From Sulfuritalea sp. (GTDB taxonomy: Bacteria > Pseudomonadota > Gammaproteobacteria > Burkholderiales > Rhodocyclaceae), in contig JAIPCS010000074.1 in assembly GCA_021738105.1 (NCBI GenBank), positions 1 through 14,438 of the forward strand: a stretch of 14,438 nucleotides of DNA, in the 5' to 3' direction. A model generated the notes under the pieces. That model worked only from the letters and a program-made list of their open reading frames with translations. It did no database searches and had not been told where the DNA came from. The translations under genes and the position numbers were made by a program. Shown one piece after another: positions 1 to 14,438 of this stretch (its first letter is position 1; every line of letters starts with the position of its first letter).

Positions 1-1
1 C

Positions 2-252: not shown

Positions 253-304
253 TCCTCTCGTTTACGGATGTTCGTCGACTGATCAGTACAGAATGGAAAT
301 GCTC

Positions 305-754
305 ATGAAAAGACTCATCGCCGGAATTGTGCTTCTTACAATCTCCTTGCTGGCCTCCGCTCAGGAAGTTACTTATCGCAAGCACATTCGCCCACTATGG
401 GAGGACAGGTGCGAACGCTGTCACGGCAGTTCCGCTCCCTACCTGGGAACTTTCGAGGAAGACAAGAAGGCTTACGAGGCTGATGACAAAGGGCCGCGCA
501 TGGACAGTTATGCGGACCTGATTTTCTTCATTGGCTGGCCGGATACCGGCGCGATCATGCGTCGCCTGGACGATGGCAAGAACACGAAAGACGGCAAGGC
601 CGGAAACATGTACAAAAATCTGGGAAAGACTGAGGACGAGCGGCAGGCGAATCTCAAGCTCTTCAAGCTATGGGTCGGTGAAGCTTCCTGGATCATGAAG
701 AAGTCCGGAGAGATCACCAAGGAAGAACTGATGAGAATCAAGACGCCCTACTGA
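305..754 (+). CDS. Exported monohaem c-type cytochrome
   Basis: A 149-residue protein that probably carries electrons in the periplasm. Residues 1-19 are a signal peptide (MKRLIAGIVLLTISLLASA, cleaved before QEV). C36-E-R-C39-H40 is the single covalent haem c site, preceded by YRKHIRPLWEDR. That arrangement resembles the start of planctomycete-type and related small cytochrome domains (family resemblance only). Candidate axial Met ligands are M102 and M131; I cannot choose between them. The rest is charged and contains no second CxxCH. The frame stays open back to 170, but 170-290 is repeat DNA, so the start is placed at 305, where the signal peptide begins and a weak GGAA lies 6 bases upstream. 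ATGs at 293 and 299 are alternatives. It stands alone between repeat blocks. The electron partner is unknown. Confidence 0.8.
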   Translation: MKRLIAGIVLLTISLLASAQEVTYRKHIRPLWEDRCERCHGSSAPYLGTFEEDKKAYEADDKGPRMDSYADLIFFIGWPDTGAIMRRLDDGKNTKDGKAGNMYKNLGKTEDERQANLKLFKLWVGEASWIMKKSGEITKEELMRIKTPY

Positions 755-770
755 GCAGAATAATCCATAA

Positions 771-794
771 CGCATGGTCTATGCCGGCCATGCG
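771..794. terminator. Hairpin after the cytochrome gene, possible terminator
   Basis: CGCATGG (771-777) and CCATGCG (788-794) are perfect 7-base complementary arms, 17 bases after the cytochrome stop codon. No T-tract follows, so it could be a Rho-independent terminator only in a weak sense. It may instead protect the 3' end of the mRNA. Confidence 0.3.
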
Positions 795-820
795 TGCAAT
801 CGTTCCAGCGTTCGCGAGCG

Positions 821-957
821 GCAACCAAAAGCGCAACCAAAAGGGGCAACAAAAAGGGGCAGAATGACCCCTCCTGTTCTTCCGGCAGCGCACCAACAAC
901 CGGGGTCGGCAACTCGGGCCGGCAATTTGAGTCAACCCGACCCCGTAACGCTTAAAT
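821..957. repeat. Short tandem repeat and degenerate block A
   Basis: GCAACCAAAA occurs at 821-830 and 833-842, followed by a related GCAACAAAAAGGGG at 846-859, giving about a 13-base period. It runs into GGGGCAGAATGACCCC, a shrunken relative of block A whose GGGTCAG/CTGACCC arms lie much closer together. A further CCCGACCCCGTAACGCTTA-like piece sits at about 936-956. I see no gene in 755-962. Confidence 0.5.
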
Positions 958-962
958 GCGGA

Positions 963-2777: not shown

Positions 2778-2910
2778 TGGACTCCCTTGTGTTTTAGTTG
2801 ATGGTGCGGGGTGCAGTAAGGTCGCTATTCGTTTGGATGTCAATGAATATTTCCATTCGGATGAATCCAGGGCAGTAAAAGAACAGTGAAATCAAAAGTG
2901 AGTTCGTAAG

Positions 2911-3036
2911 AATCGCCGTCTCGCCGGCGCCGAGTTTTATGCGGCAGCGAGGGTGTTCCGCGCAAACCTGCTATCGGTAAAAGGATCAAAACGATTTGAA
3001 TTCCTGAATCACTCCGACCCGTTTAGTTTCGTACCG
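2911..3036 (-). repeat. Composite repeat, reverse orientation (blocks C and A)
   Basis: GCCGTCTCGCCGGCGCCGAG with following TTTTATGCGGC at 2917-2943 is block C on the minus strand, with a few changes. GAATCACTCCGACCC and GTTTAGTT (3006-3030) are the right half of a reverse block A. Same block order as the copy at 8489-8577. Confidence 0.65.
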
Positions 3037-3088
3037 CATCAGCCTGCTCGGCGAAGTGAGTTAGCGATAAGGGGCGCCCGGTGTCCGA

Positions 3089-3134
3089 GAGGTATTGGGA
3101 AGAGGTATTGAAGAGGTATTGGGAAGAGGTATTG
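3089..3134. repeat. Four-copy GAGGTATTGGGAA tandem array
   Basis: GAGGTATTG begins at 3089, 3102, 3113 and 3126 (spacing 13, 11, 13), mostly continued by GGAA. The last unit runs directly into the GGGGTCAG arm of the following block A. The array is short, non-coding, and probably a replication-slippage product at the repeat edge. Confidence 0.75.
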
Positions 3135-3340
3135 GGGTCAGAGTGATTTCAGATTTCAAATCGTTCTGACCCGGTTGATCCACCCGGCTGATCCGATTCG
3201 TTTTGCCCGTCAATCTGACTGGCCGAACGATGCGCGGCTGAAAAGTCGGTGATGGCGAGACGGCACTCCACAGTGCCGTGCTGCCAGCGCCGACTTTGCG
3301 GGAATCGAATGCTTCGAAACCGAATCGAACCGAATCCGCC
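3134..3340 (+). repeat. Most complete composite repeat copy (A-B-C, C inverted, D)
   Basis: Block A (3134-3181) has GGGTCAGA and TCTGACCC arms around GTGATTTCAGATTTCAAATC. Block B includes TTTTGCCCGTCAA (3200-3212). Block C starts with GCGGCTG at 3234. AAAGTCGG (3242-3249) pairs with CCGACTTT (3290-3297), enclosing a perfect inner stem, CGGCACT (3261-3267) with AGTGCCG (3272-3278) and a 4-base loop. Block D follows (3298-3340). This is the reference against which the other fragments are recognised. It is non-coding, and the open frames across it are shadows. Confidence 0.85.
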
Positions 3341-3415
3341 TCCATATCTCAAGCGGCGGGATGTGCGATGGAGTTCAACAAGCCGTGCGGGTGGTTCAAT
3401 GGCCGCTTGGCGCGT

Positions 3416-3793
3416 TCAGCCTGGCGAGCCGACCATGCGAGTAAGCATCCGGGAGATATCGGTGAAAAGTTTGAGTTTCGCGGAGAACTTGCGCTCGCCG
3501 AGCAGTTGCCGGTCAAGCTGGTCTGCAAGCTGTTGAGTTCTGGCAATCAGTTCGGCATCCGGAGGATTGAGGGTGATTCTCCCGCCAGCACCTTCCAGCA
3601 GCATGCGCTTGACCCTGTTCAGGGCGCCTTCGCATTCGAAAAGAACCTGCTGGCGTCGCTGTTTGTCGTCGGCGTCGGTTTCATTGCTGTGCAGGATATC
3701 AAGCGCGATTTGCGCATCTTCCAGTTGGCTCTTCTTTGCGAAAAGCCAGGCCGTCGGCGTGACACCCGGCGGGAGTGTGATTTGAGTAGCCAT
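3416..3793 (-). CDS. Small cytosolic protein, third gene of lipoprotein operon
   Basis: A 125-residue protein I do not recognise. It has no signal peptide or membrane segment. The first 20 residues (MATQITLPPGVTPTAWLFAK) are followed by helical, charged sequence with a Q/R/E-rich stretch (residues 40-66) and a K/R-rich C-terminus. It begins 18 bases after the stop of the upstream lipoprotein gene on the same strand and lacks a clear Shine-Dalgarno sequence (GGACC is too far upstream), so it is probably translated by coupling or read-through of the same mRNA. A cytosolic partner encoded behind two lipoproteins is unusual, and its role is unknown. Confidence 0.65.
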   Translation of the reverse strand: MATQITLPPGVTPTAWLFAKKSQLEDAQIALDILHSNETDADDKQRRQQVLFECEGALNRVKRMLLEGAGGRITLNPPDAELIARTQQLADQLDRQLLGERKFSAKLKLFTDISRMLTRMVGSPG

Positions 3794-3811
3794 GGTTGCA
3801 GGTCCGGTTGA

Positions 3812-4363
3812 TTACTTGGGCGGCGCCGCTTCCGCGGCTTCCTTGTTGCTTTTGACTTCCGCTTGCACTTCCTTAATGAATTTGGTCACCAGTTTCAAGC
3901 GGTCCGCGAAAGGCAGTTCATCCCCCAACTCAGCCAATTGTTTTTGTGTGGCTGCAATCTTCGGCAAAGGTGGCGCGGCGGGCTTCATGAGCGAATCCAT
4001 CGCGCTCTGGACTTCTTTCTCGTCGGCCGCCTTGTCGGCAAGCAACTTCGCGCGCAGCTCCGCCGCCTGCCGCATCTTGGTATATATGGCGAATTTCGCC
4101 GTGTCGTCTGTGAGCGATGCCGTTGCGTCATCGAACTCGTTGTCGCGCAGATAGCGTTTGGCCTGGAGCGTCTCGTCAATGACCACTTGCCGGCGCAAAG
4201 TGTCAATGGTTTTTTGCTGTTGATCGTAGCTTGCTAGCTCACGTTGCAGGCCGGCCGTGAGGGCGACGCCATTGTTTGCATGATCAAGGGCGATCTTCGG
4301 AGTGGCGCATGCAGTTAAGCAGATTGTGGCCAGGCAGACCAGGTTGGTGCGGGAGGCTCTCAT
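3812..4363 (-). CDS. Small helical lipoprotein
   Basis: A 183-residue putative lipoprotein. Residues 1-18 form a short signal peptide with lipobox L16-T17-A18-C19, so the mature protein starts at Cys19 with Ala next, which favours outer-membrane sorting. The rest is predicted helical (QQQKTIDTLRRQVVIDETLQ and similar), with a Pro-rich break at residues 127-135 (KPAAPPLPK) and an Ala/Glu/Lys tail ending AAEAAPPK. Its start overlaps the stop of the upstream gene as ATGA (4360-4363), which indicates translational coupling and probably a physical partnership with that lipoprotein. No family was recognised. Confidence 0.75.
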   Translation of the reverse strand: MRASRTNLVCLATICLTACATPKIALDHANNGVALTAGLQRELASYDQQQKTIDTLRRQVVIDETLQAKRYLRDNEFDDATASLTDDTAKFAIYTKMRQAAELRAKLLADKAADEKEVQSAMDSLMKPAAPPLPKIAATQKQLAELGDELPFADRLKLVTKFIKEVQAEVKSNKEAAEAAPPK

Positions 4364-5838
4364 TTGTTCACTCCACCACCGATCCAGAGCAGTGCAATAC
4401 TCTGGATCAGGTCTTTGTATTCGGAGAATTTCTGTCCGCCGGCGGCATACTCAGAAGCCTGCCCGACCACGGATCCGATCAGCGAAGACCATTGGCCGGC
4501 ACTGTTCTCCGCGTAACCGATCGAGCGTTCGTGCGCGATGGTCATCTTCATCGTTTCAAGCCGCTGGGTGTGCGATCGCTGCCGTCCGATCGCATCGAGA
4601 TAGTCACCGGCCGCCCCGATTAGCGAGGTCTTGATTTTCTCGCCGGCCTCCGAATATGCTGCCGTAAAAGTCTTTGTAGCGAGCGAGGGTTCCATGACAG
4701 ACGCAAGTTTTTTCTGGGCGGACCTGATCAGCAAAGCTTCCTCGAAGCGGGAAGCAAGAATCAATTTCGACAGGGCCACCCGCTGCTCGGCATACGAGAC
4801 TTCCAGGGCGGCCGCATCCGCGCGGCCCTTCTCGATGTCTCGGCGAATGATCAGCGCCGTTTTTGGCGTCGTCTTGTTCAGCGCATCGATCGCATGCAAA
4901 TCGTCGGCAATTTTCGGAAGCATCAAGGCCTGGATTTCCGCGTGCCCGGCATCCTTGCCCGGTTCCACGGCAGACTCGACCTTCTCAAGCAATTCGTCCA
5001 GCGTGTTGACTTTTTCCTTTGCGATGGCTTCCTTGGCGAATCCGAACTTGTCTTGGAGCTTGAGCAATGCGTCCAGAGCCGTGCGCAGTTTGCCAGCCAG
5101 TTCAGCAATTTTCTCCGATGGCTTGGCTCCCTCTGCAGAATCGCTTTTGACGGCGTCTTCGTAGGCTTTCAGAGCCGCCTTGTACTCGCTGGTTTTTTCA
5201 GTAGCATTTTCCTTCGCCTCGCTGACCCGCTTTGCCTCTTTCTCGAAGGCCAGCCAATACGTGCCTCCAATTGTCTTCTCGAGTTCAGCGACCTTTCCGG
5301 AAGCTTCTTTTTCTTTGGCGCAGGAACTCTTGAAATCCTCCAAGGCGCGGTTCGCCCTGTCTGGCAAGATGGCGCTCGACTTCAACGCGGCGGCACAGTT
5401 GGAAAGGCCGGGGGCATGCAACGATAAAAGGTCGCGCGAGAACGCCAAGTTCTTTCGCCTGAGGGTCAATGCCCTGTTAGCGTTGTCCCATTTGTCCAAT
5501 TGGCTGATCTTGCCATCAAGCAGGTTGGACAATTCATCACCGAGCGTGTCACTGAACTCCGTGACCGTTCCACCGGCGACAACTCGCATAGAATTCTCGC
5601 GGCGAGTCATGGTGTGCAAGGTGATAGATTCCAATTCCGCTTGCAGCAGCTTCTTCCGCTCGTCCCGTTGCGACTGGAAGTATGTTTTCAGGTCCACTTC
5701 CGACCACGCCTTTTTGGCGGCTTCACCCTGTTTGTCACGTGTTTCGTCGTAGAGCCGCATGCCGGAGCACCCGGAAAGAAGAACGCTGCAGGCGAGTATC
5801 AGGAGGGCGGCTGGGCGCATTCGGTTCAACGGTTTCAC
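4360..5838 (-). CDS. Large coiled-coil lipoprotein, first gene of operon
   Basis: A 492-residue protein starting with GTG at 5838; AGAGGT lies 8 bases upstream and supports this over the ATG at codon 7. The signal peptide carries lipobox L21-S22-G23-C24, and mature Cys24 is followed by Ser-Gly, which suggests the outer membrane. Nearly all the remaining sequence is Lys/Glu/Ala/Leu-rich, with heptad-like stretches at about 50-75, 160-275 and 330-385, so an elongated coiled-coil periplasmic protein is likely. The C-terminus (450-492) is more hydrophobic and glycine-rich (SSLIGSVVGQ, ALLWIGGGVNK) and could touch a membrane or partner. Additional Cys residues at 148 and 173 could form a disulfide. 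The family is not recognised. It heads the set 5838 to 3416 and overlaps the next gene by 4 bases. Confidence 0.8.
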   Translation of the reverse strand: MKPLNRMRPAALLILACSVLLSGCSGMRLYDETRDKQGEAAKKAWSEVDLKTYFQSQRDERKKLLQAELESITLHTMTRRENSMRVVAGGTVTEFSDTLGDELSNLLDGKISQLDKWDNANRALTLRRKNLAFSRDLLSLHAPGLSNCAAALKSSAILPDRANRALEDFKSSCAKEKEASGKVAELEKTIGGTYWLAFEKEAKRVSEAKENATEKTSEYKAALKAYEDAVKSDSAEGAKPSEKIAELAGKLRTALDALLKLQDKFGFAKEAIAKEKVNTLDELLEKVESAVEPGKDAGHAEIQALMLPKIADDLHAIDALNKTTPKTALIIRRDIEKGRADAAALEVSYAEQRVALSKLILASRFEEALLIRSAQKKLASVMEPSLATKTFTAAYSEAGEKIKTSLIGAAGDYLDAIGRQRSHTQRLETMKMTIAHERSIGYAENSAGQWSSLIGSVVGQASEYAAGGQKFSEYKDLIQSIALLWIGGGVNK

Positions 5839-5859
5839 TGGTGCATACCTCTGGCGTGC

Positions 5860-6300
5860 TGTTTGCGCGAATCAGATTAGCAACGCTACGCGCCGTGCAT
5901 TGATAAGGAGAAAACATGCATAGACGCCCAGCCAAATGCGGAATTGAGTTGGTAAAGGGTGATCAGCCAAGGTCGCGCATTCTCCTTCGTTCCTGGATTA
6001 GCGTATGGCATCGGTCGTTGCTGTCTTGCGCATTTCGACCTCAAGCAATGGGTTTGGGGCGTTTATATACCCAGTAATGTAGTCAACGCAATCCCAACTT
6101 TGCCGCAATGGAACGCTCAGTATGCCGAAGGCAATATCGATATCGCGATGCAGCACGAATCCCCTATTGGATGCTTCGGCGTAGAGAAGAAGATTTGCTG
6201 CAATGCGGCATATCAATATGAAATGTTTCTATTTAACTGCCGCACGCCACTGATACTGTCAGATTACGAATCACTAGACTAAACAGATCAGCTTCGCAAT
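5860..6300. other. Gene-poor, unresolved stretch upstream of the lipoprotein operon
   Basis: About 440 bases without a recognisable gene, more AT-rich than its neighbours. It must contain the promoter of the minus-strand operon, but I see no convincing -35/-10 pair. Two overlapping open frames have plausible codons: a plus-strand frame from GTG 5959 to 6282 (107 residues, containing VWGVYIPSNVVNAIP) and a minus-strand frame 6216-5998 (72 residues, containing RDIDIAFGILSVPLRQ). Neither shows a domain I know, and neither has a good ribosome binding site. One could be a remnant of an older gene. A small frame at 5916 is listed separately. Confidence 0.4.
5916..6077 (+). CDS. Possible 53-residue small protein with strong ribosome binding site
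   Basis: ATG at 5916 is preceded by TAAGGAG, 5 bases away, one of the best Shine-Dalgarno sequences in the window. The frame encodes 53 residues starting MHRRPAKCGIELVKGDQ and ending GRLYTQ before TAA. It is basic, with two cysteines, and has no signal peptide or recognised family. The overlapping frame from 5959 continues much further, so this may be the head of a longer gene broken by a frameshift around 5960-6000. It could equally be a chance match. It diverges from the lipoprotein operon, so a shared promoter region is possible. Confidence 0.22.
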   Translation: MHRRPAKCGIELVKGDQPRSRILLRSWISVWHRSLLSCAFRPQAMGLGRLYTQ

Positions 6301-6308
6301 AGTTTTGG

Positions 6309-6380
6309 CGTCACTCCACAGTGCCGTGGTGTCAGCGCCTACTTTGGGTGAATCGGATGCTTCGGAACCAAACCGAACCT
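6309..6380. repeat. Composite repeat right part (inverted C and D)
   Basis: TCACTCCACAGTGCCG followed by TGTCAGCGCCTACTTT (6311-6344) matches the right half of the 3241-3300 hairpin. TGAATCGGATGCTTCGGAAC and CAAACCGAACC (6348-6379) match block D. It ends exactly where the IS-like TGAGG begins, which suggests that an insertion targeted the repeat edge. Confidence 0.7.
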
Positions 6381-6527
6381 GAGGTAGACCGGCTTTTCCG
6401 GACACATTTGAAGGTAGACAATATCTTTGGAGGTGTCGAATGGGAAAGACAGTCAGCAAGGAAATCAATCGGGGCAACCCGGGAGGCAAACGCGTTCGGT
6501 TCAGCAAGGAGTTCAAACTGGAAGCCG
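6380..6527 (+). mobile_element. Left-end fragment of an IS3-family element (5' end of orfA)
   Basis: From 6440 the reading frame encodes MGKTVSKEINRGNPGGKRVR then FSKEFKLEAV. The K-R-x-R-F-S-K-E-F-K-L-E-A-V string is the characteristic start of OrfA helix-turn-helix transposase subunits of IS3-family elements. Just upstream are the ribosome site GGAGGT (6430-6435) and a 5' region starting TGAGGTAGACCGGC at 6380. TG at the end is typical of IS3 termini, so 6380 may be the element's left end. The homology to the second gene copy begins at about 6528, so everything of the IS downstream of codon 30 of orfA is lost. No right end or orfB is present in the window. Confidence 0.65.
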
Positions 6528-7036
6528 TTTTGTCGCTTTTTCTGCTTTCGTCACTTGCGATTGCAAGCCCAGATCAAATTGACGTTATCGGGATCGTCCC
6601 CGGCGTGTCATCGGAGAGTGACGTAAAAGCGGCCTGGTCGTCCCCCGTCGGGGAAAACGCGGGCTACCTTGAAGTGGGTGGTTACAGGATGCTCTGTACG
6701 GCGCTTTTCGAGGATGGCAAGTTGGCAGACATGAAGTGCGCAACCGGGAAGAAGTTTTCCAGCGCATCGAATATGGAGATTCACCGGGCTCTGCGCCTGG
6801 GTTTCGAAGGGAAATTTGGCCGTGCCGACGAAGTCAGGAATAGTCCGGTACGAAACCGCATAGGCATTGTGAAGCAATCCATCGTGGTGATTTGGCGCGA
6901 CAATCAGGGCAATCGTCTTACGCTTGTTTCCATGAACAACGAGTTTGACGAGGGCCTGCTGCAACTTTCTTCATCGGCATATCTTCAAATGCTGGATGAA
7001 AAGGCCAGGCAAGCGGGAAAAACGAAAAAATTCTGA
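6440..7036 (+). CDS. Exported-protein paralogue fused to an OrfA transposase N-terminus
   Basis: A 198-residue chimera. Residues 1-30 are the N-terminus of an IS3-type OrfA (FSKEFKLEAV at 21-30). Residues 31-198 match residues 8-175 of the protein at 8604-9131, with 149 of 168 positions identical by my alignment. The join removes the first seven residues of the native signal peptide but keeps its hydrophobic core and cleavage region (LSLFLLSSLAIAS). The body begins DVIGIVPGVSSESDVKAAW, like the small BamE/SmpA-type fold found in many outer-membrane lipoproteins (weak resemblance, no lipobox here). GGAGGT sits 4 bases before the ATG, so translation from the IS-derived start is likely efficient. 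Whether a basic 30-residue extension still allows Sec export is unclear. It precedes the cytochrome gene by about 100 bases. Confidence 0.75.
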   Translation: MGKTVSKEINRGNPGGKRVRFSKEFKLEAVLSLFLLSSLAIASPDQIDVIGIVPGVSSESDVKAAWSSPVGENAGYLEVGGYRMLCTALFEDGKLADMKCATGKKFSSASNMEIHRALRLGFEGKFGRADEVRNSPVRNRIGIVKQSIVVIWRDNQGNRLTLVSMNNEFDEGLLQLSSSAYLQMLDEKARQAGKTKKF

Positions 7037-7135
7037 TGCCGGTGCGCACCGGTTTCTTCGGGGCGGCATGAGCCAAGTCTGCGTGACTGAATGAATTGCC
7101 GCCCCACCATTTTTTACCCTTGACGGAGCATCGCC

Positions 7136-7585
7136 ATGAACCTAGCCAGCAAATCCCTTTCCATTTCACTTGCCGTGATCGTCGCTGTCGCCCTGACAGG
7201 CTGCGGCAAGGAAGCACCGCCCCCGCCGCCGGTCCAGGCAGCGCCGGCTCCTGCGCCAGCCGTAGCGGCGCCTTCCGCCACCGCGGCTGCTGCGCCCGGC
7301 GCTGCACCAACAGCAACTCCAACTGCGGCTCCGGCAATATCCAACAAAGCCCTCGCCGCCAAGAACGGCTGCCTGGCCTGCCACGCTATCGACAAGAAAA
7401 TGGTCGGCCCCGCCTATCAGGACATCGCCAAAAAATACACGGCCAGTGACGAAGCCAAGCTGATTGCCAATGTCAAGTCCGGTAGCAAGGGTGTTTGGGG
7501 TTCGATTCCAATGCCGCCGAACGCCAGGGTCAGTGATGAAGACATCAAAACCCTGGTCAATTGGATACTCGCCGGCGCCAAGTAA
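7136..7585 (+). CDS. Lipoprotein cytochrome c-551-type (class I) cytochrome
   Basis: A 149-residue membrane-tethered electron carrier. Signal peptide 1-22 ends in lipobox L20-T21-G22-C23. Residues 28-68 are a Pro/Ala/Thr-rich flexible linker. The haem domain runs from about 69: C79-L-A-C82-H83 binds haem c, and M126 in IPMPPN is the expected axial ligand. KNGCLACHAIDKKMVGPAY and GVWGSIPMPPN are near-identical to the short cytochrome c-551/c8 family (NirM-like), whose members donate electrons to cytochrome cd1 nitrite reductase, peroxidases or oxidases. The family assignment is firm; the partner is not visible here. ACGGAG lies 7 bases before ATG. A terminator follows at 7609. Most family members are soluble, so the lipid anchor plus linker is a variation. 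Confidence 0.92.
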   Translation: MNLASKSLSISLAVIVAVALTGCGKEAPPPPPVQAAPAPAPAVAAPSATAAAAPGAAPTATPTAAPAISNKALAAKNGCLACHAIDKKMVGPAYQDIAKKYTASDEAKLIANVKSGSKGVWGSIPMPPNARVSDEDIKTLVNWILAGAK

Positions 7586-7608
7586 ACCCGGTTGCAGTGT
7601 CAAGAAAG

Positions 7609-7645
7609 GCCAGACCCACTCACGGTGGGCTGGCTTTTTATTTTC
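7609..7645 (+). terminator. Rho-independent terminator after cytochrome c-551 gene
   Basis: GCCAG (7609-7613), a bulged A, and CCCAC (7615-7619) pair with GTGGG (7625-7629) and CTGGC (7630-7634) around a 5-base loop, followed by TTTTTATTTT. It lies 24 bases past the stop codon, and the G/C stem with T-tract is classical. Confidence 0.88.
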
Positions 7646-7673
7646 TCGCGGGCGCAGCAAAGCGAGTAAGGCG

Positions 7674-7789
7674 CATCAGAGTGTTTTCAGATTTCAAATC
7701 GTTCTGACCCATTTGATCCGATTCGTTAAACCCGTCAAGTAAGCCGAGCGAGAGATGCGAGGCATAAAAGTCGGCGCTGGCGAGACGGC
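7674..7789 (+). repeat. Composite repeat, forward (A-B-C)
   Basis: Block A here reads ATCAGAGTGTTTTCAGATTT, then CAAATCGTTCTGACCC (left arm decayed to ATCAG). Block B reads GATCCGATTCGTTAAACCC, then GTCAAG. Block C is AAAAGTCGGCGCTGGCGAGA, then CGGC (7766-7789). It fills the gap between the cytochrome terminator and the toxin-antitoxin operator and ends 5 bases before that operator. Confidence 0.85.
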
Positions 7790-7794
7790 GGGCA

Positions 7795-7812
7795 GTAGCA
7801 CCAATGTGCTAC
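7795..7812. promoter_or_regulatory. Palindromic operator of the RHH/RelE toxin-antitoxin operon
   Basis: GTAGCACCAATGTGCTAC is a perfect 7-base inverted repeat with a 4-base spacer, 53 bases before the antitoxin start. TACATT (7810-7815) overlapping its right arm could be the -10 box, so bound antitoxin would block the polymerase. A nearby GTGC/GCAC pair (7806-7823) may extend the site. Autorepression by ribbon-helix-helix antitoxins at such palindromes is well established; binding here is inferred. Confidence 0.65.
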
Positions 7813-7865
7813 ATTAGATGCACGCATTTCACCCTGTCCACCCATTCCACCCTCGGGAGCCCGCC

Positions 7866-8150
7866 ATGAGCACCACGACCATTCGCCTGCCGGAAGACCT
7901 GAAAGCCCGTGTTGCGAAGGCAGCAAAACGCGCCGGCACGACCGCCCACGGATACATTCTTGAGGCTATCGCAGAGAAGGCGGCGCAGGATGAATTGCGC
8001 GCCGATTTCGATGCCGTCGCCGAAGAACGCTACGCCGGTATCGTCGCTTCCGGCAAGACAATCCCGTGGCAGGAAATGCGCGGCTATCTGGAGGATCGCC
8101 TTGCCGGCAAGGCAACACGACGCCCGACGGCACGAAAACTCGCGCGCTGA
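7866..8150 (+). CDS. Ribbon-helix-helix antitoxin (type II TA)
   Basis: A 94-residue antitoxin. MSTTTIRLPEDLKARVAKAA is the beta strand and first helix of a ribbon-helix-helix DNA-binding domain (CopG/ParD/RelB-like); residues 1-50 bind DNA as a dimer and represses the operon. The C-terminal part (PWQEMRGYLEDRLAG) should wrap and block the toxin encoded next. GGGAG at 7855-7859, 6 bases before ATG 7866, supports this start over the in-frame ATG at 7818, which lies inside the promoter region. The stop is two bases before the toxin start, typical of a coupled TA operon. Confidence 0.88.
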   Translation: MSTTTIRLPEDLKARVAKAAKRAGTTAHGYILEAIAEKAAQDELRADFDAVAEERYAGIVASGKTIPWQEMRGYLEDRLAGKATRRPTARKLAR

Positions 8151-8152
8151 AC

Positions 8153-8461
8153 ATGTCGCGCATAGAACTGGCGCCGGAGGTCATGGGCGACTTTGATCGC
8201 ATCCTAGACCACATCGCCCACTACCAAGTCGAGCACCCGGAGTTGCGCATCCGCGAGATCATCGCGGCGCTCGATGTCCTCGAACACAACCCTCTGATCG
8301 GGCGCCCTGCAAGCAAGGGCAAGCGCGAACTGGTCATCGGCCGCCGTTCGCACGGTTATCTGGCCTTGTACCGTTACGTCGCGGAAATCGACACCGTTTT
8401 CATCCTCGCCGTGCGCAGCCAGCGGGAAGCCGGGTATGGCCCGGCGGCGCAGGAACGATGA
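8153..8461 (+). CDS. RelE/ParE-superfamily toxin
   Basis: A 102-residue toxin starting at ATG 8153, two bases after the antitoxin stop. The sequence MSRIELAPEVMGDFDRILDH, central NPLIGRPASKGKRELVIG, YLALYRYV and the C-terminal TVFILAVRSQREAGY follow the RelE/ParE fold: N-terminal helices, then a beta sheet carrying basic residues. The R-x-L-x-x-GRRSHGYLALYRY arrangement is closer to ParE-like (gyrase-poisoning) members than to RelE ribonucleases, but which activity applies cannot be told from this. The partner antitoxin is directly upstream. The open frame extends upstream to 8066 inside the antitoxin, which is not used. Confidence 0.85.
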   Translation: MSRIELAPEVMGDFDRILDHIAHYQVEHPELRIREIIAALDVLEHNPLIGRPASKGKRELVIGRRSHGYLALYRYVAEIDTVFILAVRSQREAGYGPAAQER

Positions 8462-8488
8462 TGGCAGCCAGGGTCGTCGGCGAAGCAC

Positions 8489-8577
8489 GCCGTCTCGCCA
8501 GCGCCGACTTTTCAGCCGCGAAACTACCAGGGTCAGCTTGATTTGAATTCTGAAATCACTTTGACCCTTTTAGTTCA
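8489..8577 (-). repeat. Composite repeat, reverse (C then A)
   Basis: GCCGTCTCGCCAGCGCCGAC, then TTTTCAGCCGCG (8489-8520), is block C on the minus strand. GGGTCAG (8530-8536) and TTTGACCC (8560-8567) bracket GATTTGAATTCTGAAATCAC, a full block A in reverse, followed by TTTTAGTT. Block B is missing between them (only about 10 bases). It separates the TA pair from the second paralogue. Confidence 0.85.
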
Positions 8578-8603
8578 GAGCCTAACTTTTTTGGAAAACC
8601 GTC

Positions 8604-9131
8604 ATGCCTAAGTTCATTTGTATTTTGTCGCTTATTCTGCTTTCGTCACTTGCGATTGCAAGCCCCGATCAACTTGACGTTATCGGGATAGTCCCCGGCG
8701 TGTCGTCGGAGAGTGAGGTAAATGCGGCGTGGTCGTCCCCAACCGGGGAGAACGCGGGCTACCTTGAAGTGGGTGGCTACAAGATGCTCTGTACGGCGCT
8801 TTTCGAGGATGGCAAGTTGGCAGACATGAAGTGCGCAACCGGGAAGCAGTTTTCCAACGCATCGAATATGGAGATTCACCGGACTCTGCGCCTGGGTTTC
8901 GAAGGAAAATTTGGCCGTGCCAACGAAGTCAAGAATAGTCCGGTACGAAACCGCGTCGGCATTGTGAATCAAGCCATCGTGGTGATTTGGCGCGACAAGC
9001 AGGGCAATCGTCTCACGCTTGTTTCCATGAACAACGAGTTTGACGAGGGCCTGCTTCAACTGTCTTCAGCGGCCCACCTTCAAATGGTGGATGAAAAGGC
9101 CCGGCAAGCGGGGAAAGCAAAAAAATTCTGA
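8604..9131 (+). CDS. Exported small protein, intact paralogue of the 6440 gene
   Basis: A 175-residue protein with an intact signal peptide (MPKFICILSLILLSSLAIAS, cleaved before PDQ). The mature part begins DVIGIVPGVSSESEVNAAWS, resembling the start of BamE/SmpA-like small envelope domains (G-x-x-x-G-x-S-x-x-E-V). That is a weak, motif-level resemblance. Two cysteines (LCTALFEDGKLADMKCATG) may form a disulfide in the periplasm. The second half has VVIWRDKQGNRLTLVSMNNE and a Lys-rich C-terminus. Only a weak GGAA precedes the ATG. It lies alone between repeats and is the native form of the chimeric copy at 6440. Identity continues past the stop to about 9213, matching 7036-7122. Confidence 0.78.
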   Translation: MPKFICILSLILLSSLAIASPDQLDVIGIVPGVSSESEVNAAWSSPTGENAGYLEVGGYKMLCTALFEDGKLADMKCATGKQFSNASNMEIHRTLRLGFEGKFGRANEVKNSPVRNRVGIVNQAIVVIWRDKQGNRLTLVSMNNEFDEGLLQLSSAAHLQMVDEKARQAGKAKKF

Positions 9132-9218
9132 TGCCAGCGCGCACCCGCCTCATCGGGGCGGCATGAGCCAGGTCTGCATGGCCGGAAGAATTGCGGCCCC
9201 GCCATTGTTTACCCCTGG

Positions 9219-9302
9219 AACCGCTTGATCCGAATCGTTTCGCCCGTCAAGCAGGCCGACCGCGAATTGCGCGGCTGAAAAGTCGGCGCTGGCGAGACGG
9301 TG
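9219..9302 (+). repeat. Composite repeat, forward (B-C)
   Basis: TTGATCCGAATCGTTTCGCC and CGTCAAGCAGGCCGA (9224-9259) are block B. GCGGCTGAAAAGTCGGCGCT, then GGCGAGACGG (9271-9300), is block C. Block A is absent: the duplicated tail of the 8604 gene joins block B directly. Confidence 0.8.
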
Positions 9303-9305
9303 GGG

Positions 9306-9428
9306 CGGCTGATTCTCGGGGGCGATGACGCGTGTGCGCTGATCGCGGAGCTGGAAGCCAAGCAGGCGAAGCTTTTCGCCGGGCTATCGGTGGGGCGAAG
9401 TGGTGGGCAGCTAAACGGGTGCGATTGA
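9306..9428 (+). pseudogene. Possible remnant of a coding sequence tail
   Basis: Positions 9306-9428 read without stops as 40 residues, RLILGGDDACALIAELEAKQ then AKLFAGLSVGRSGGQLNGCD, ending in TGA. The first 30 residues have normal amphipathic helix composition and look like the end of a lost gene. The last ten lie in sequence shared with 10302-10325 (GTGGGCAGCTAAACG), i.e. repeat. There is no start codon, and the family is not recognised. The region sits between two repeat fragments, consistent with decay or deletion of cargo. Confidence 0.3.
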
Positions 9429-9458
9429 TTTGAAATCCGAAATCACTCTGACCCCAAT
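9403..9458 (-). repeat. Repeat fragment: GTGGGCAGCTAAACG motif and half block A
   Basis: GTGGGCAGCTAAACGGGTGC (9403-9422), then GATTGATTTGAAATCCGAAA and TCACTCTGACCCC (to 9455). The same order, with a few changes, occurs at 10302-10352. This is a reverse block A whose left arm has changed from GGGTCAG to GGGTGCG. Confidence 0.8.
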
Positions 9459-9525
9459 AATTCCAAAATAGCCCCAAGCCCGACACAACCCTGCACTGGC
9501 ACCATCACTACGGTGACGCTGATCC

Positions 9526-9564
9526 GTACTACAATCAGTACCATTATGCTCAAAACAGGTACTG
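9526..9564. promoter_or_regulatory. GTACT-repeat operator and -10 box of the Phd/PIN TA operon
   Basis: GTACT occurs at 9526-9530, inverted as AGTAC at 9537-9541, and again as GTACT at 9559-9563. CAGTACC (9536-9542) and GGTACTG (9558-9564) form a 7-base inverted repeat. TACAAT at 9530-9535 is a good -10 box lying between the first two half-sites; I see no clear -35. Antitoxin binding to several half-sites would give autorepression, as known for Phd/YefM operons. Confidence 0.6.
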
Positions 9565-9566
9565 AT

Positions 9567-9833
9567 ATGAATACCCTCACCGTCTCGGAACTGAAACGTC
9601 GCGGCATGGCGGCCATCGAGGATGGCCTGCGCGATGGCCCGGTACATATCGTCAAGCGCAACAAGCCTGCGGCAGTGGTCCTGACCGAGGCGGACTACCA
9701 GCGTCTTGCGCATGGCCGGGCAGTCACCCCAAGCGGCGTGACTGCCGTGCAGTGGCTGCTGAACCAGCGTACCGCCGGCAAGCGCAGCAAGGCGAAGATC
9801 GACGCCGCACTCAAGGCCGAGCGCGACTGGTGA
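9567..9833 (+). CDS. Phd/YefM-family antitoxin
   Basis: An 88-residue antitoxin. MNTLTVSELKRRGMAAIEDG followed by GPVHIVKRNKPAAVVLTEAD and YQRL is the conserved N-terminal DNA-binding and dimerisation domain of the Phd/YefM family (residues 1-50). The C-terminal 38 residues (WLLNQRTAGKRSKAKIDAAL) are the toxin-binding part. The start at 9567 is preceded by AGG, 7 bases away; ATG 9546 and the open frame from 9513 lie in the operator/promoter. Its stop overlaps the toxin's GTG (GTGA, 9830-9833), so the two are translationally coupled. Confidence 0.88.
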   Translation: MNTLTVSELKRRGMAAIEDGLRDGPVHIVKRNKPAAVVLTEADYQRLAHGRAVTPSGVTAVQWLLNQRTAGKRSKAKIDAALKAERDW

Positions 9834-10240
9834 TTGCCTTCTTCGACGCCAGTGCCCTGATCTACCTGATCGAAGGCGCGGAGCCATTCGCCACCAAGGT
9901 GCGCAAGGAATTGGCAACGGTGGCGAAGAAGCATCCTGATCTGGGCGCCGCGGTGAGCCGCCTGTCGTGGCTGGAATGTCGGGTAGGGCCGATGAAGGGC
10001 AACGACAGCGCGACACTGGCGGCATTCGACGCCTTCTTTGCGCGGACCGATCTGGTCTGGGTGGAACTGACCAGGGATGTTATCGAACTCGCGGCGGCAA
10101 TCCGCGTTCAGACCGGCCTGAAGACGCCCGACGCGCTGCAGGCGGCGTCGTGCCTCCAGCTTGGCGGCGAGCACCTGTTTTTGACCGGAGACAGCGCGTT
10201 CAGGCGAGTTGCCGGGCTGAATGTGAAGGTGCTGACATGA
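9830..10240 (+). CDS. PIN-domain toxin (VapC-like ribonuclease)
   Basis: A 136-residue PIN-domain protein, a Mg-dependent RNA endonuclease by family. The acidic site is complete: D6 (AFFDASALIYLIEG), E49 (SWLECRVG), D101 (KTPDALQAAS) and D121 (LTGDSAFRR). It starts with GTG at 9830, overlapping the antitoxin stop. The in-frame ATG at 9752 lies within the antitoxin gene and would add residues foreign to the fold. VapC toxins typically cleave tRNA anticodon loops or the sarcin-ricin loop; the target here is unknown. The pairing with a Phd/YefM rather than a VapB antitoxin is a common mix-and-match. Confidence 0.9.
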   Translation: MIAFFDASALIYLIEGAEPFATKVRKELATVAKKHPDLGAAVSRLSWLECRVGPMKGNDSATLAAFDAFFARTDLVWVELTRDVIELAAAIRVQTGLKTPDALQAASCLQLGGEHLFLTGDSAFRRVAGLNVKVLT

Positions 10241-10253
10241 GCTGAGTCATGGG

Positions 10254-10365
10254 GGGGTAGAGTGATTTCGGATCTCAAATTATCCTGACCCGTATGGTCC
10301 TGTGGGCAGCTAAACGAGCGCGATTGACATGAATCCGAAATCATTCTGACCCTTTTGGTTCTGCT
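10254..10365. repeat. Two facing block A copies
   Basis: The first, forward, is GGGTAGAGTGATTTCGGATC, then TCAAATTATCCTGACCCGTA (10254-10294). GTGGGCAGCTAAACGAGCGC links to the second, reverse, GATTGACATGAATCCGAAAT, then CATTCTGACCCTTTTGGTT (10322-10360). The two palindromes could pair with each other into one long hairpin. I see no gene in 10241-10473. Confidence 0.8.
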
Positions 10366-10473
10366 CTGAGCCTTTAGCTTCTATTTAGTTTTACCGGAGC
10401 CCCCGCAGCTTCGATCGTGCGCTGCATGTAGAATCACATTGTCATTCTCGACAAGAAAGATCAGGAATTCCAA

Positions 10474-12267
10474 GTGGCGACACTGATTCCAAGTTACGGG
10501 ACCTGCGCGGGGCGCATGACGCCGGGCGAACGACGCTTTGCGCAACGCCTCGAAGCCAAGCTTGAGGCGGATTATCTGTGTTGGTATGACGTTCCTGTCG
10601 GTCCCACGAACAGTCATCCTGATTTCATTGTCCTGCATCCCCAGCGAGGCCTGCTGATCCTGGAAGTAAAAGACTGGAAGCCGGATACCATCCACTCGAT
10701 CACCAAGTCTGACGCGGCAATTCTCACTCCCCAGGGACTCAAGCATGTCCTCAATCCGCTCGAACAGGCCCGCCAATACGCCCATGCCGTAGTCGGCGTT
10801 TTGGCGCGCGATAAGCAGCTGACGCTTTCCAGCGGCAAGATGGAAGGACGGCTGACCTTTCCATGGACCTATGGCGTGGTGCTTGCCAATATCTCGCGAC
10901 GCACTTTCGAAAGCTCCGGTCTGGCGGAAGTAATCGAGCCGCAGCGGGTGCTCTGCCAGGACGAAATGACCGAGTCCGTCGATATGGAGGCATTTCAGCA
11001 GCGGCTTTGGGAAATGTTCTCGGTTCGTTTTCGCGGCAACCTGACCCTGCCGCAACTTGATCGCGTTCGGTGGCATTTGTTCCCTGAAATTCGTTTGCCA
11101 AATACACAGGAAGGACTCTTCAAGAAGGAAGAGTTGGCGGAGGTCGAAATCCCGGACTTGATGAGGGTGATGGATCTTCAGCAAGAGCAATTGGCACGGA
11201 GCCTCGGTGAGGGTCACCGGGTTATCCACGGCGTAGCGGGCTCGGGGAAGACTCTGATTCTCGGGTACCGCGCCGAACAACTCGCCAAGGTGTGCGCCAA
11301 ACCGATCCTGGTGCTGTGCTACAACAAGACGCTTGCCGGGCGACTGGTTCACTGGATGTCGAGCAAGGGTGTTGCGGACAAGGTGCATGTCCGGACATTT
11401 CATAGCTGGTGCCGCAGCCAGCTGAGTGCTTACAACGTCAGCTTCGCCAAGCATCAGGAAGACAAGAACGCCCTCATGGCCGAGATGGTTCAGGCGGTCA
11501 TCCGCGCGGTCGAGCGTAAGCAGATTCCCTCGGCGCAATATGAGGCCGTGCTGATCGATGAAGGCCACGACTTCAGGCCTGAATGGCTGAAGCTCGTCGT
11601 TCAAATGGTCGACCCACACAGCAACTCGCTGCTCGTCCTCTACGACGATGCGCAGTCTATCTACGAGGCGGAGCGCAAGAAAAACTTCAGCTTCAAGAGC
11701 GTCGGCATACAGGCGGCGGGGCGCACGACGATCCTGAAAGTCAATTACCGCAACACGCAGGAAATTCTGGAGTTCGCCGCACAGTTAGCTAGCGAGCTAC
11801 TCAAGGCAAACGATGCCGAGGAAGACGGCATCCCGCGCCTCGTTCCAATATCTGCCGGTCGTCACGGCAAGGCACCAATGGTGGTGAAGCTGCCGACGCT
11901 GCAAGCGGAAGGGGAATGGATAGCAGAGCGCTTGAAGGAAGAGCATGCCAAAGGCACGCCGTGGTGCGACATGGCAATCCTGTACCGGCACTATGAGCCG
12001 ATATGTACAACCGTCCGCAAGGAATTGCGGAAGGAAGGTATTCCCAACACCTGGAAGAACGACATCACGTTTGGCGAAAGCCAGGACACCGTCAAGCTGT
12101 TGCCATTCCATAGCAGCAAAGGTCTCGAGTACCCAATCATCGTTATACCCGGCGCGGGCCTGCTGCCAACCCCGGACAAGGCAACCGAAGAGGACGCGCG
12201 TCTGCTCTACGTGGCGATGACACGCGCAACATCGCAGCTGATTGTGACCGGGGCCCAGAACACTTGA
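10474..12267 (+). CDS. NERD-domain nuclease fused to UvrD-type SF1 helicase
   Basis: A 597-residue two-domain enzyme. Residues about 17-125 form a NERD (nuclease-related) domain with the PD-(D/E)xK-like set D50 and E64-V-K66 (HPDFIVLHPQRG, LLILEVKDWKP). The rest is a superfamily 1 helicase: Q-motif region near 234-240, Walker A GVAGSGKT (253-260), Walker B VLIDEGHDF (D362, E363), motif III LLVLYDDAQSIY (386-397), motif IV VNYRNTQEI (423-431), motif V HSSKGLEYP (546-554) and motif VI LLYVAMTRA (577-585). All ATPase motifs are intact. It starts with GTG at 10474, with AGGA 7 bases upstream. Fusions of this kind occur in DNA processing and in phage defence, and the neighbours (PIN toxin-antitoxin, DUF262, HEPN) favour defence. 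That role is inferred. It stands alone between repeats. Confidence 0.9.
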   Translation: MATLIPSYGTCAGRMTPGERRFAQRLEAKLEADYLCWYDVPVGPTNSHPDFIVLHPQRGLLILEVKDWKPDTIHSITKSDAAILTPQGLKHVLNPLEQARQYAHAVVGVLARDKQLTLSSGKMEGRLTFPWTYGVVLANISRRTFESSGLAEVIEPQRVLCQDEMTESVDMEAFQQRLWEMFSVRFRGNLTLPQLDRVRWHLFPEIRLPNTQEGLFKKEELAEVEIPDLMRVMDLQQEQLARSLGEGHRVIHGVAGSGKTLILGYRAEQLAKVCAKPILVLCYNKTLAGRLVHWMSSKGVADKVHVRTFHSWCRSQLSAYNVSFAKHQEDKNALMAEMVQAVIRAVERKQIPSAQYEAVLIDEGHDFRPEWLKLVVQMVDPHSNSLLVLYDDAQSIYEAERKKNFSFKSVGIQAAGRTTILKVNYRNTQEILEFAAQLASELLKANDAEEDGIPRLVPISAGRHGKAPMVVKLPTLQAEGEWIAERLKEEHAKGTPWCDMAILYRHYEPICTTVRKELRKEGIPNTWKNDITFGESQDTVKLLPFHSSKGLEYPIIVIPGAGLLPTPDKATEEDARLLYVAMTRATSQLIVTGAQNT

Positions 12268-12301
12268 GGGGCTGGCATCACGGCTGGTCGCGCGGACCGT
12301 G

Positions 12302-12371
12302 CGAAAAGTCGGCGCTGGCGACACGGCAATTCGAAGCGTCGGAGAAAGAAATCACTCTGACCCCTTTAGCT
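12302..12371. repeat. Composite repeat fragments (forward C, reverse half A)
   Basis: GAAAAGTCGGCGCTGGCGAC and ACGGC (12303-12327) are block C, followed by AATTCGAAGC, reminiscent of block D. AAAGAAATCACTCTGACCCC with TTTAGCT (12345-12371) is the right half of a reverse block A. It lies between the helicase stop and the DUF262 gene. The remaining stretch, 12372-12484, is AT-rich and presumably holds that operon's promoter; I could not fix its boxes. Confidence 0.75.
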
Positions 12372-12484
12372 TTTAATTTAGACTTCGCCAGTAAGATGAT
12401 ATGTGTCATTCAGTTTTTCCGTTCGCGCGAATTTGTTGAGCCGAATGGACTTAGAAATGGACGAATTTTGAAGAGAGGCAATCA

Positions 12485-13564
12485 ATGGCAATAGATTTTT
12501 CTGAAGATGATCTGGACATCGAAGAGGAGCAAGAGGAATCTTCAGTCGTAATTGATTACGACATCGCAAGCTACCCGTCAGACTTTACCCTGGCCGGAAT
12601 CGATCAGATGTGGAGAGACAAAGACATTGTTATCCCGGACTACCAAAGAGAATTCGTTTGGTCAATACGGCAGTCGTCGCTGCTGATTGATTCATTTTTG
12701 AGCGGGCTACCAGTGCCACCTGTTTTTTTCTATATCGATGAGAACAACAAGAACCTAGTGATTGATGGTCAGCAAAGAATTCTCAGTGTTGTGTTTTTTC
12801 TTGATGGATATTTCGGACGAGAAAGCACTCACGGAAAACGACAAGTTTTTCGACTGTCGGGCCTAGACGAAAGTAGTCCGTACCACAACCACAGGTTTGA
12901 AGATCTAGGTGAGGGAGCGCAACGAAAGCTGAAACAAGCTGTATTGCGAGCTGTAAATATTCGCCAATTGAGTCCGACTGGCGAAAGTACAAGCGCGTAC
13001 CACATTTTTGAACGACTAAATACCGGAGGGACGCCGCTCACCCCTCAGGAAATTCGCAATTGTGTTTTTAGAGGCGGTTTTAATAAATTGCTCCGCAAAG
13101 CGAATGAAGATCCGAATTGGAGAAAGATTCTCGGCAATCGCTATCTCGACAAACATCAAAAAGATATCGAATTGCTTCTCAGGATATTTTCCCTCGTGGG
13201 AGCAGGGAAAGACTACGAGAAACCAATGAAAGAATTTCTAAACAAAGCCATGAAAAAGCATGACAGCGCCGACACTAAAAAGGCAAAGAATTTTTTTGAA
13301 GTATTTCCAGTGATTACTGAAACTGTCGTCAAATCAATGGGACAAAAACCTTTTCATTTGCGAGGCCCTCTGAACGTATCAGCGCTTGATTCTGTGATGA
13401 GTACATTGATTGAGAACTATCGACAGATAGACTCAATTAACCTTAAGGGTCGTTACAAAGATCTTGTTGATGACGAATATTTTGATGAATTCACACGAAT
13501 CAATACCACCGACACAAAGACAGTAAGGGCTCGTATCGAAAAGGTTAAGGAATACCTGCTATAA
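12485..13564 (+). CDS. DUF262 (ParB-like/GmrS-like) domain protein
   Basis: A 359-residue protein. After an acidic N-terminus (residues 6-20, DLDIEEEQEE) comes a DUF262 domain: IPDYQREFVW (50-59), VIDGQQR (92-98, the ParB/sulfiredoxin-like nucleotide-handling motif) and FERLNTGGTPL (175-185) with PQEIRN (187-192). DUF262 is the N-terminal part of GmrSD-type modification-dependent restriction enzymes and of BrxU, where DGQQR is needed for NTP hydrolysis. There is no DUF1524/HNH domain here; the C-terminal 160 residues are Lys-rich and helical, so another protein must supply any nuclease. GAGAGG at 12473-12478, 6 bases before ATG, supports the start. The gene is far more AT-rich than the helicase upstream (22 of 60 G/C at 13201-13260, against 37 of 60 at 11281-11340), a sign of separate transfer. 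The HEPN gene follows after 6 bases. Confidence 0.88.
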   Translation: MAIDFSEDDLDIEEEQEESSVVIDYDIASYPSDFTLAGIDQMWRDKDIVIPDYQREFVWSIRQSSLLIDSFLSGLPVPPVFFYIDENNKNLVIDGQQRILSVVFFLDGYFGRESTHGKRQVFRLSGLDESSPYHNHRFEDLGEGAQRKLKQAVLRAVNIRQLSPTGESTSAYHIFERLNTGGTPLTPQEIRNCVFRGGFNKLLRKANEDPNWRKILGNRYLDKHQKDIELLLRIFSLVGAGKDYEKPMKEFLNKAMKKHDSADTKKAKNFFEVFPVITETVVKSMGQKPFHLRGPLNVSALDSVMSTLIENYRQIDSINLKGRYKDLVDDEYFDEFTRINTTDTKTVRARIEKVKEYLL

Positions 13565-13570
13565 ATAGCT

Positions 13571-14077
13571 ATGACATATCACGAAAACTTCAAACACGCC
13601 GATGACTTGGTTGCGCACTTGAATGGTGTCGTGCCTTCAATCGCTGATCCACTCCTGCAAGCCAAATACATTGGATTCGTGTCTGTAGCTGCAGTTACGG
13701 TGTACGAGTTGGCGGTAAAAGAAATCTTTATTACTTTTGCTGCAAAAAAACATATGGTGCTGCGAAATTTTGCAGAAGCCTACTTTGATCGCATTAATGG
13801 CCGAATACGCATTCAAGAAATACGCAAAGAATACATCCCAAAATTTGGGGCAAAGTATGAGAAGAAATTTCAGCAGAAGATTGAGAAACGAGCACAAGAG
13901 TTCCTTAGAGTGGAGCGTCGCGACATTCGTTCGTCGTATGGGAATCTTGTCACTTGGCGTAATGACTTTGCACACGAAGGAAGGCTAAATGCGACTGCGA
14001 CCTATACGGAAGTTATTCAGGCCTACGAGGATGGAAAGGAGGTTATTCATTGCCTCGCAGACGCGATGAATAGGTAA
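13571..14077 (+). CDS. HEPN-family putative ribonuclease (MAE_28990/MAE_18760-like)
   Basis: A 168-residue, almost entirely helical protein. R130-N-D-F-A-H135 in VTWRNDFAHEGR is the HEPN catalytic Rx4-6H motif with the usual polar residue after Arg. The long helix AVTVYELAVKEIFITFAAKK (41-60) and the Lys-rich stretch at 82-108 fit the HEPN four-helix bundle and RNA binding. The overall pattern matches the MAE_28990/MAE_18760 group described among HEPN proteins of defence and toxin systems (named from memory of the family; a profile search would settle it). It starts 6 bases after the DUF262 stop without its own good ribosome site (AGGAA lies 18 bases upstream), so it is coupled to that gene. 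Likely activity: metal-independent RNA cleavage controlled by the DUF262 partner (inferred). Confidence 0.82.
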   Translation: MTYHENFKHADDLVAHLNGVVPSIADPLLQAKYIGFVSVAAVTVYELAVKEIFITFAAKKHMVLRNFAEAYFDRINGRIRIQEIRKEYIPKFGAKYEKKFQQKIEKRAQEFLRVERRDIRSSYGNLVTWRNDFAHEGRLNATATYTEVIQAYEDGKEVIHCLADAMNR

Positions 14078-14081
14078 TCAG

Positions 14082-14137
14082 CTAAACGGGTCAGAGTGAT
14101 TACAGATTTCAATTCAACCTGACCCGTTTGATCCTCC
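14082..14137 (+). repeat. Block A with the longest perfect arms
   Basis: AAACGGGTCAG (14084-14094) and CTGACCCGTTT (14119-14129) are perfect 11-base inverted arms around a 24-base centre (AGTGATTACAGATTTCAATT onward), followed by GATCC. It sits 5 bases after the HEPN stop. With the TTT at its right edge it may also terminate transcription. Confidence 0.88.
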
Positions 14138-14223
14138 TGATTTTCAAACGGCCTGAGCCAATGCCATGCGAATCTCGACGGCATTAGCGATAGGGGGTCA
14201 GCATCGAATTGAATCTGCATAGC

Positions 14224-14340
14224 CGCAGAAAGTCGGCGCTGATGAAGCCCCTGCGCTACAAGGCGGTCGTAAAACTATTGGGGTCGGGTTCGATATTGCT
14301 TTGAGCGAGCGCCAATAGTCGGCGCTGGCGGTACGGCAAC
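14224..14340 (+). repeat. Two block C fragments
   Basis: GCAGAAAGTCGGCGCTGATG (14225-14244) and AATAGTCGGCGCTGGCGGTA with CGGC (14314-14337) are two block C copies in the same direction, about 88 bases apart, with GGGGTCGGGTTCG between. I see no gene in 14138-14355. Confidence 0.7.
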
Positions 14341-14355
14341 AAACGAGCCGTCTGT

Positions 14356-14438
14356 TCAGGCGACAACTTCCAGCCCGCGCTTCTGCACCAAGTGAAGCAA
14401 TTTCAGGGCGGTCCCCGTCGGCTTCTTCTGGCCGATCT
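14356..14438 (-). CDS. 3' end of a possible XRE-type regulator or antitoxin (partial)
   Basis: On the minus strand, 26 codons run into the window edge and end in TGA at 14356-14358: IGQKKPTGTALKLLHLVQKR followed by GLEVVA. The string K-x-P-x-G-x-A-L-K-L-L-x-L-V is characteristic of the C-terminal end of helix-turn-helix (XRE) antitoxins and regulators paired with RelE/HigB-type toxins, where it follows the HTH. Only the tail is visible, so the assignment is tentative; other HTH proteins end similarly. Confidence 0.5.
   Translation of the reverse strand, partial: IGQKKPTGTALKLLHLVQKRGLEVVA

Follow-up and report, generated by a model that had tools for sequence, protein, structure and literature searches.

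A DUF262 gene followed closely by a HEPN gene in a contig of Sulfuritalea sp. (JAIPCS010000074.1, assembly GCA_021738105.1, positions 1 to 14,438; this whole stretch of 14,438 nt is referred to here as the window) constitutes a real, conserved two-gene module. Both genes are intact and adjacent, and the motifs of the NTP pocket and of the HEPN domain are conserved together. The pair probably defends against phages by means of a sensor that binds nucleotides and turns on a partner that cuts RNA. The fuller reading, which we favour with some reservation, is of a horizontally acquired PD-T4-2-like module with an NTP-switched DUF262 protein and an RNA-cutting HEPN protein. The general type of the pair has already been described, and the window copy lies in an unstudied branch of it.

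The layout of the pair and of its surroundings is given in Table 1. Pfam places GmrSD_N (PF03235) at residues 46-194 of the DUF262 protein (E 9e-30, 104.7 bits, cut-off 33.2) and HEPN_RiboL-PSP (PF18735) at residues 11-167 of the HEPN protein (E 5.2e-19, 69.3 bits, cut-off 28.4). The latter carries the conserved R-x4-H of PF18735, and the broader description of a helical HEPN fold with R-x4-6-H applies to it as well. The coordinates, the spacing and the four motifs (YQREFVW, DGQQR, FERLNTGG and RNDFAH) reported in the initial annotation were found exactly so in the ORFs and translations. It had also described the DUF262 protein as lacking a DUF1524 or HNH nuclease, and none was detected by Pfam at E<=1. 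Its assignment of the HEPN protein to the MAE_28990 family did not stand; this family is ruled out, the Pfam match being PF18735 instead. The HEPN protein of a phage relative (L014) matches MAE_28990 best.

Table 1. Positions in the window of the DUF262-HEPN pair, its flanking repeats and its upstream neighbours.
Feature	Position	Strand	Remarks
ParE toxin	8150-8461		Upstream of the DUF262-HEPN pair
Phd/PIN pair	9561-10240		Upstream of the DUF262-HEPN pair; Phd 27.9 bits, under the Pfam cut-off of 29.8
NERD-UvrD helicase	10474-12267		Directly upstream of the pair; near full-length match to PADLOC candidate C3a187, E 4.3e-175
Left boundary of the pair	12297..12363	.	One S repeat (12297-12327) and half an R repeat (12348-12363); nhmmer
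DUF262 / GmrSD_N protein, 359 aa	12485..13564	+	NTP-binding subunit of ParB/sulfiredoxin-like type that lacks a nuclease domain; putative sensor and switch
6-base gap, DUF262 stop codon to HEPN start	13565..13570	+	Both genes in one reading frame
HEPN protein, 168 aa, RiboL-PSP-HEPN family	13571..14077	+	Proposed RNase effector
Right boundary of the pair	14088..14337	.	R repeat, a 38-bp imperfect palindrome (14088-14125); S copies at 14229-14241 (weak) and 14305-14337

For each protein, residues were checked in the best 120 of the homologues found (381 and 3271), with the window copy counted in. R130 and H135 of the HEPN protein were unchanged in 120/120 homologues, so the HEPN motif, whose lack of conservation would have refuted the proposal of the initial annotation, is in fact conserved. 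The residues of the DGQQR motif in the DUF262 protein (D94, G95, Q96, Q97 and R98) were likewise unchanged in 120/120. In a diverse set of 15 rows, R130 and H135 of the HEPN protein and D94, G95, Q97 and R98 of the DUF262 protein were invariant, and Q96 varied. Among the 22 HEPN partners found at the best 30 loci (see below), the catalytic arginine was aligned in 22/22 and the histidine in 21/22; the only partner without an aligned histidine is L044, whose frame stops early. Both frames of the window pair are intact, and wherever the 120-row alignments are invariant the window proteins agree with them.

The proposed kinship of the DUF262 protein to NTP-dependent restriction subunits was borne out by the structure comparisons. 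A Foldseek search with a one-chain model of both proteins returned BrxU (E 9.7e-4) and SspE as the best matches, followed by ParB/Noc CTPases at E 0.04 and above, and BrxU was the sole match of the DUF262 protein when the PDB was searched by sequence (E 0.011). The one-chain model had a pTM of 0.64 and therefore gives no confident DUF262-HEPN interface. With the HEPN protein, Foldseek found nothing at E<=0.001; its best structural matches include MntA-HepT and MNT-HEPN toxin-antitoxin structures. Nothing in the PDB was taken as its kin by sequence, the best match being RadA at E 0.0029.

The pair recurs in distant genomes and is therefore not a product of chance. A HEPN gene was found directly downstream of DUF262 in 6/6 genome loci with DUF262 proteins 58-79% identical. 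Matches to the DUF262 protein were also present in 734 plasmid and 24 phage records; eight of these were examined, representing distinct lineages among the best-ranked, and a HEPN gene was next to DUF262 in 8/8 (Pfam above cut-off). On one of them, a Hymenobacter plasmid, the DUF262 protein adjoining HEPN (L008, 2443-4008, 521 aa) has an N-terminal extension of ~150 residues that is absent from the other 14 aligned rows. Moreover, clusters 83% (HEPN) and 84% (DUF262) identical both have as their longest contig one of 3,041,484 bases, presumably one and the same, so that a close intact relative of the pair exists elsewhere.

A wider survey covered 398 genomes of one phylum, 65 of them with a DUF262 match. 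The downstream gene was examined at 57 loci, made up of the 30 best and 27 more (rows with E above about 1e-12 were left out; L016 and L003 are one locus). A HEPN gene followed DUF262 at 28 of these loci (22 in the first set and 6 in the second) and a Menshen-type ATPase at 23 (7 and 16); one had a fused HNH, identified by eye, and five had neither. In the second set, HEPN was called six times with a profile built from the first (E 1e-22 to 3e-5, L058 and L059 being the weakest), and the 16 ATPase calls had E<=6e-59. All seven ATPases among the best 30 loci were matched by NsnB, and of the 22 HEPN partners there 18 matched PF18735 and 7 matched MAE_28990 (E<=0.01, overlap possible). With 6/6 genome loci, 8/8 plasmid or phage relatives and 28/57 wider loci, the adjacency that the initial annotation had made a test of its proposal is conserved. 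The other 29/57 loci are without a HEPN partner, and DUF262 therefore does not imply an RNase. In addition to the 57 loci, a place in genome G001 was read as ATPase-type; this genome carries a HEPN pair as well as an ATPase-type one.

At L050, L060, L062, L070 and L072 neither a HEPN protein nor a Menshen-type ATPase was recognised downstream of DUF262; in L060 a 455-aa protein of unknown kind follows 111 bases on. In L021 (1441-2778) the DUF262 relative continues at its C-terminus into an HNH-like extension, recognised by eye, and there is no separate partner gene. Such a protein may connect the DUF262 proteins of GmrSD type with those of partner type.

The 398 genomes were also searched with the HEPN alignment. 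Nine of the 12 matches (E<=2.2e-26) lie directly behind DUF262. All nine are rows of the query itself, two of them as the identical proteins P0059 and P0110, and the reciprocal search is therefore circular and brings no independent confirmation. In these genomes the search gave no further strong HEPN of the window's clade away from DUF262; of the three weak matches, one begins at the end of a contig and the other two lack DUF262 in the stretch examined around them. Viral contigs yielded six pattern matches, with no relative confirmed among them. A tblastn search of plasmids with the HEPN protein gave no match at 1e-5, and must be regarded as too weak because HEPN genes do adjoin the plasmid DUF262 genes examined.

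Both proteins were compared with the PADLOC families. The DUF262 protein scored 211.8 bits against NsnA and 168.1 bits against PD-T4-2_A (E 7.1e-50); NsnA and NsnB are labels that we take to denote Menshen. The HEPN protein matched 0 families at E<=1, all PD-T4-2_B models included. Two NsnA subunits with an ATPase partner reached 453 and 454.9 bits. Three loci are clear PD-T4-2 (L024, L028 and L036), with 448.5-556.6 bits for the A subunit, E 3.7e-40 to 9.3e-59 for the B subunit and DUF262-HEPN gaps of 3, 3 and -1. An hhalign comparison of the window HEPN profile with their three B proteins gave a probability of 6, and a second profile comparison of HEPN clades gave 12.

In a 45-row DUF262 tree, the window falls in a HEPN-paired group of 20 rows (96/91). 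The three PD-T4-2 rows form a separate clade (100/100) adjoining this group (together 95/93), and eight Menshen-type rows form one clade (100/99), 16 further ATPase loci having been left out. Three changes, the fewest possible, account for the four partner labels on this tree, so that a single change between HEPN and ATPase suffices, read without a direction as the root is not fixed. Two HEPN proteins of the 20-row group match PD-T4-2_B weakly (L013, E 4e-4; L010, E 0.008), as distant kinship would lead one to expect. Judged by sequence, the window pair is PD-T4-2-like and not PD-T4-2, because its HEPN protein has no PD-T4-2_B match and its DUF262 protein lies outside the PD-T4-2 clade. Of the 22 HEPN partners at the best 30 loci, the PD-T4-2_B models of PADLOC 2.0.0 match only three (E<=0.01), and this, together with their miss of the window HEPN protein, suggests that DUF262-HEPN pairs are undercounted in surveys.

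There is no support for regarding the pairing as new. It was tabulated in a 2013 census (Anantharaman et al., PMC3710099), the available part of which lists Ribo L-PSP-HEPN as 'operon with ParB' and has a separate entry for HEPN fused to ParB (DUF262) with HNH. The former shares with the window PF18735, the conserved R/H motif and a ParB-fold gene in the operon, DUF262 being upstream of HEPN and ParB/Noc among its fold matches; however, it names ParB and not DUF262, and comes with no function test. PD-T4-2, which acts against T4, is of the same design. Excerpts of PMC10952713 give its domains as DUF262 and a PF18735 HEPN, describe DUF262 without DUF1524 in PD-T4-2, Menshen and Dazbog, and fit the Menshen reading of the PADLOC labels. 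In the sections of PMC9519451 (Vassallo et al. 2022) available to us, ECOR65 minus PD-T4-2 shows strongly increased T4 plaquing, and the system, obtained in a phage selection, is absent from the five named as toxin-antitoxin-like. The available portions of PMC12839542, PMC11090510 and PMC11291487 contain nothing on a DUF262-HEPN pair, and a literature search at title and abstract level found nothing on the mechanism of one.

Like the window pair, PD-T4-2 consists of two adjoining genes, DUF262 and then, directly downstream, a PF18735 HEPN of about 165-170 aa, without DUF1524 (PMC10952713, in part), and the window DUF262 protein matches its A subunit. Unlike in the window, its B subunit is matched by PD-T4-2_B, its A subunit scores 448-557 bits against 168, and its DUF262 sits in the three-row clade and not in the separate group of 20. 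Menshen begins with a DUF262 gene of the same family as that of the window, whereas its second gene encodes an OLD-like ATPase (NsnB) and not a HEPN protein. The type IV restriction enzymes GmrSD, BrxU and SspE have in common with the window a DUF262 domain with DGQQR, BrxU and SspE being the best folds, but contain a DUF1524/HNH nuclease, the place of which is taken in the window by a separate HEPN protein.

The pair differs in base composition from its surroundings. GC3 is 0.422 in the DUF262 gene and 0.450 in the HEPN gene, against 0.608-0.781 in 13 other ORFs of the window, in agreement with the AT-richness noted at the outset. Such low GC3 is consistent with recent acquisition. Repeats were mapped by nhmmer with models made from the window's own copies. 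Repeat R is a 38-bp imperfect palindrome of about GGGTCAGAGTGATTT...CTGACCC, found in ten places at E<0.05, and repeat S is about 33 bp with the core AAAAGTCGGCGCTGGCGAGACGGC, with eight copies at E<0.001 and a further two that are weaker; both range over window positions 220-14337. They stand between many gene modules of the window, which are small and several of them toxin-antitoxin or defence-like, and are therefore not special ends of the DUF262-HEPN pair. Repeats are indeed present on both sides of the pair, as the initial annotation had it, but the weight placed on them was wrong, since the families recur across the window. Neither R nor S was found in 45 related loci at E<=0.01 or had a match in Rfam, and on all these grounds a role as the mobile ends of a cassette is not supported.

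The likeliest mechanism, as suggested by the two protein families, is NTP-gated RNA cleavage. The DUF262 and HEPN proteins would act together, with DUF262 binding a signal of infection, which may be DNA, either from the phage or modified, or altered nucleotides. Binding or hydrolysis of NTP by DUF262 would then release or activate the HEPN partner, which would cut host or phage RNA (tRNA or mRNA) and so stop the infection. The mechanism of SspE is described as 'recognize-hydrolyze-activate' in the available part of PMC13251355; by analogy, the window pair may follow the same logic with an RNase in place of the DNA nuclease, a design that we infer to be 'sense DNA, cut RNA'. Because the HEPN protein has no PADLOC B match and an hhalign probability of 6, protection against T4 would carry over to the window pair through its architecture, again by analogy. 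More speculatively, and with rather less confidence than we attach to the module itself, nuclease-free DUF262 proteins might serve as a common switch that senses infection and whose killing partner can be exchanged (HEPN RNases of several subfamilies at 28/57 loci, OLD-like ATPase at 23/57). The window clade would then be an RNase-armed, NTP-gated 'sense DNA, cut RNA' branch, distinct from PD-T4-2 and Menshen. If this mechanism is true, one NTP-switch domain governs DNA cutting in GmrSD, BrxU and SspE, RNA cutting in the HEPN pairs and the ATPase effectors in Menshen, and the DUF262 step becomes a single testable question common to several defence systems.

The strongest rival to this reading is a plain toxin-antitoxin pair, in which a DUF262 antitoxin silences a toxic HEPN RNase, the main role is one of maintenance or stress response, and any phage defence is incidental. 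The antitoxin gene comes first in toxin-antitoxin modules as a rule, and the order and close spacing of DUF262 and HEPN agree with this. The toxin-antitoxin structures that the HEPN protein resembles most closely, among others, the two other such modules in the window (ParE-type and Phd-PIN-type) and the carriage of the pair on plasmids and phages point in the same direction. However, simple neutralisation would have no obvious need for a conserved NTP pocket, and the same DUF262 family precedes an ATPase in 23/57 loci. PD-T4-2, moreover, came from a phage selection and lies outside the five toxin-antitoxin-like systems (PMC9519451, in part). On balance we regard a plain toxin-antitoxin role as unlikely, while giving it more credence than either of the other alternatives.

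It is improbable that DUF262 is itself the effector, as a ParB-type nickase or an NTP-depleting enzyme, with HEPN as an accessory or binding subunit. A single-strand nicking activity switched by ATP is described for ParB/Srx proteins in the excerpted PMC12839542, and the DUF262 core stays constant while its partners differ. Against this, R130 and H135 in 120/120 homologues, and the arginine in 22/22 and the histidine in 21/22 diverse partners, amount to a strong constraint on the catalytic pair of HEPN. Least probable is that the module is an insertion among genomic repeats that has decayed or does not function and now plays no part; the pair does sit in an array of small repeat-separated modules, but its frames are intact, all positions invariant in the 120-row alignments are kept, and the 83% HEPN and 84% DUF262 clusters point to a close intact relative elsewhere. 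The preferred reading remains that of an anti-phage module with an RNA-cutting HEPN protein.

Elsewhere in the window, a gene is duplicated at 6440-7036 and 8604-9131, the copies sharing 300 bp at 94% identity and the first being without a Pfam match. Between them lie the ParE-type toxin-antitoxin module and an ORF at 7136-7585 that contains a CxxCH motif. An ORF at 963-2843 on the minus strand, without a Pfam match, contains internal repeats (2104-2213/2404-2513 and 2254-2409/2539-2694), and a PccH-type cytochrome c is encoded at 302-754 (Pfam PF22297, E 1.5e-52).
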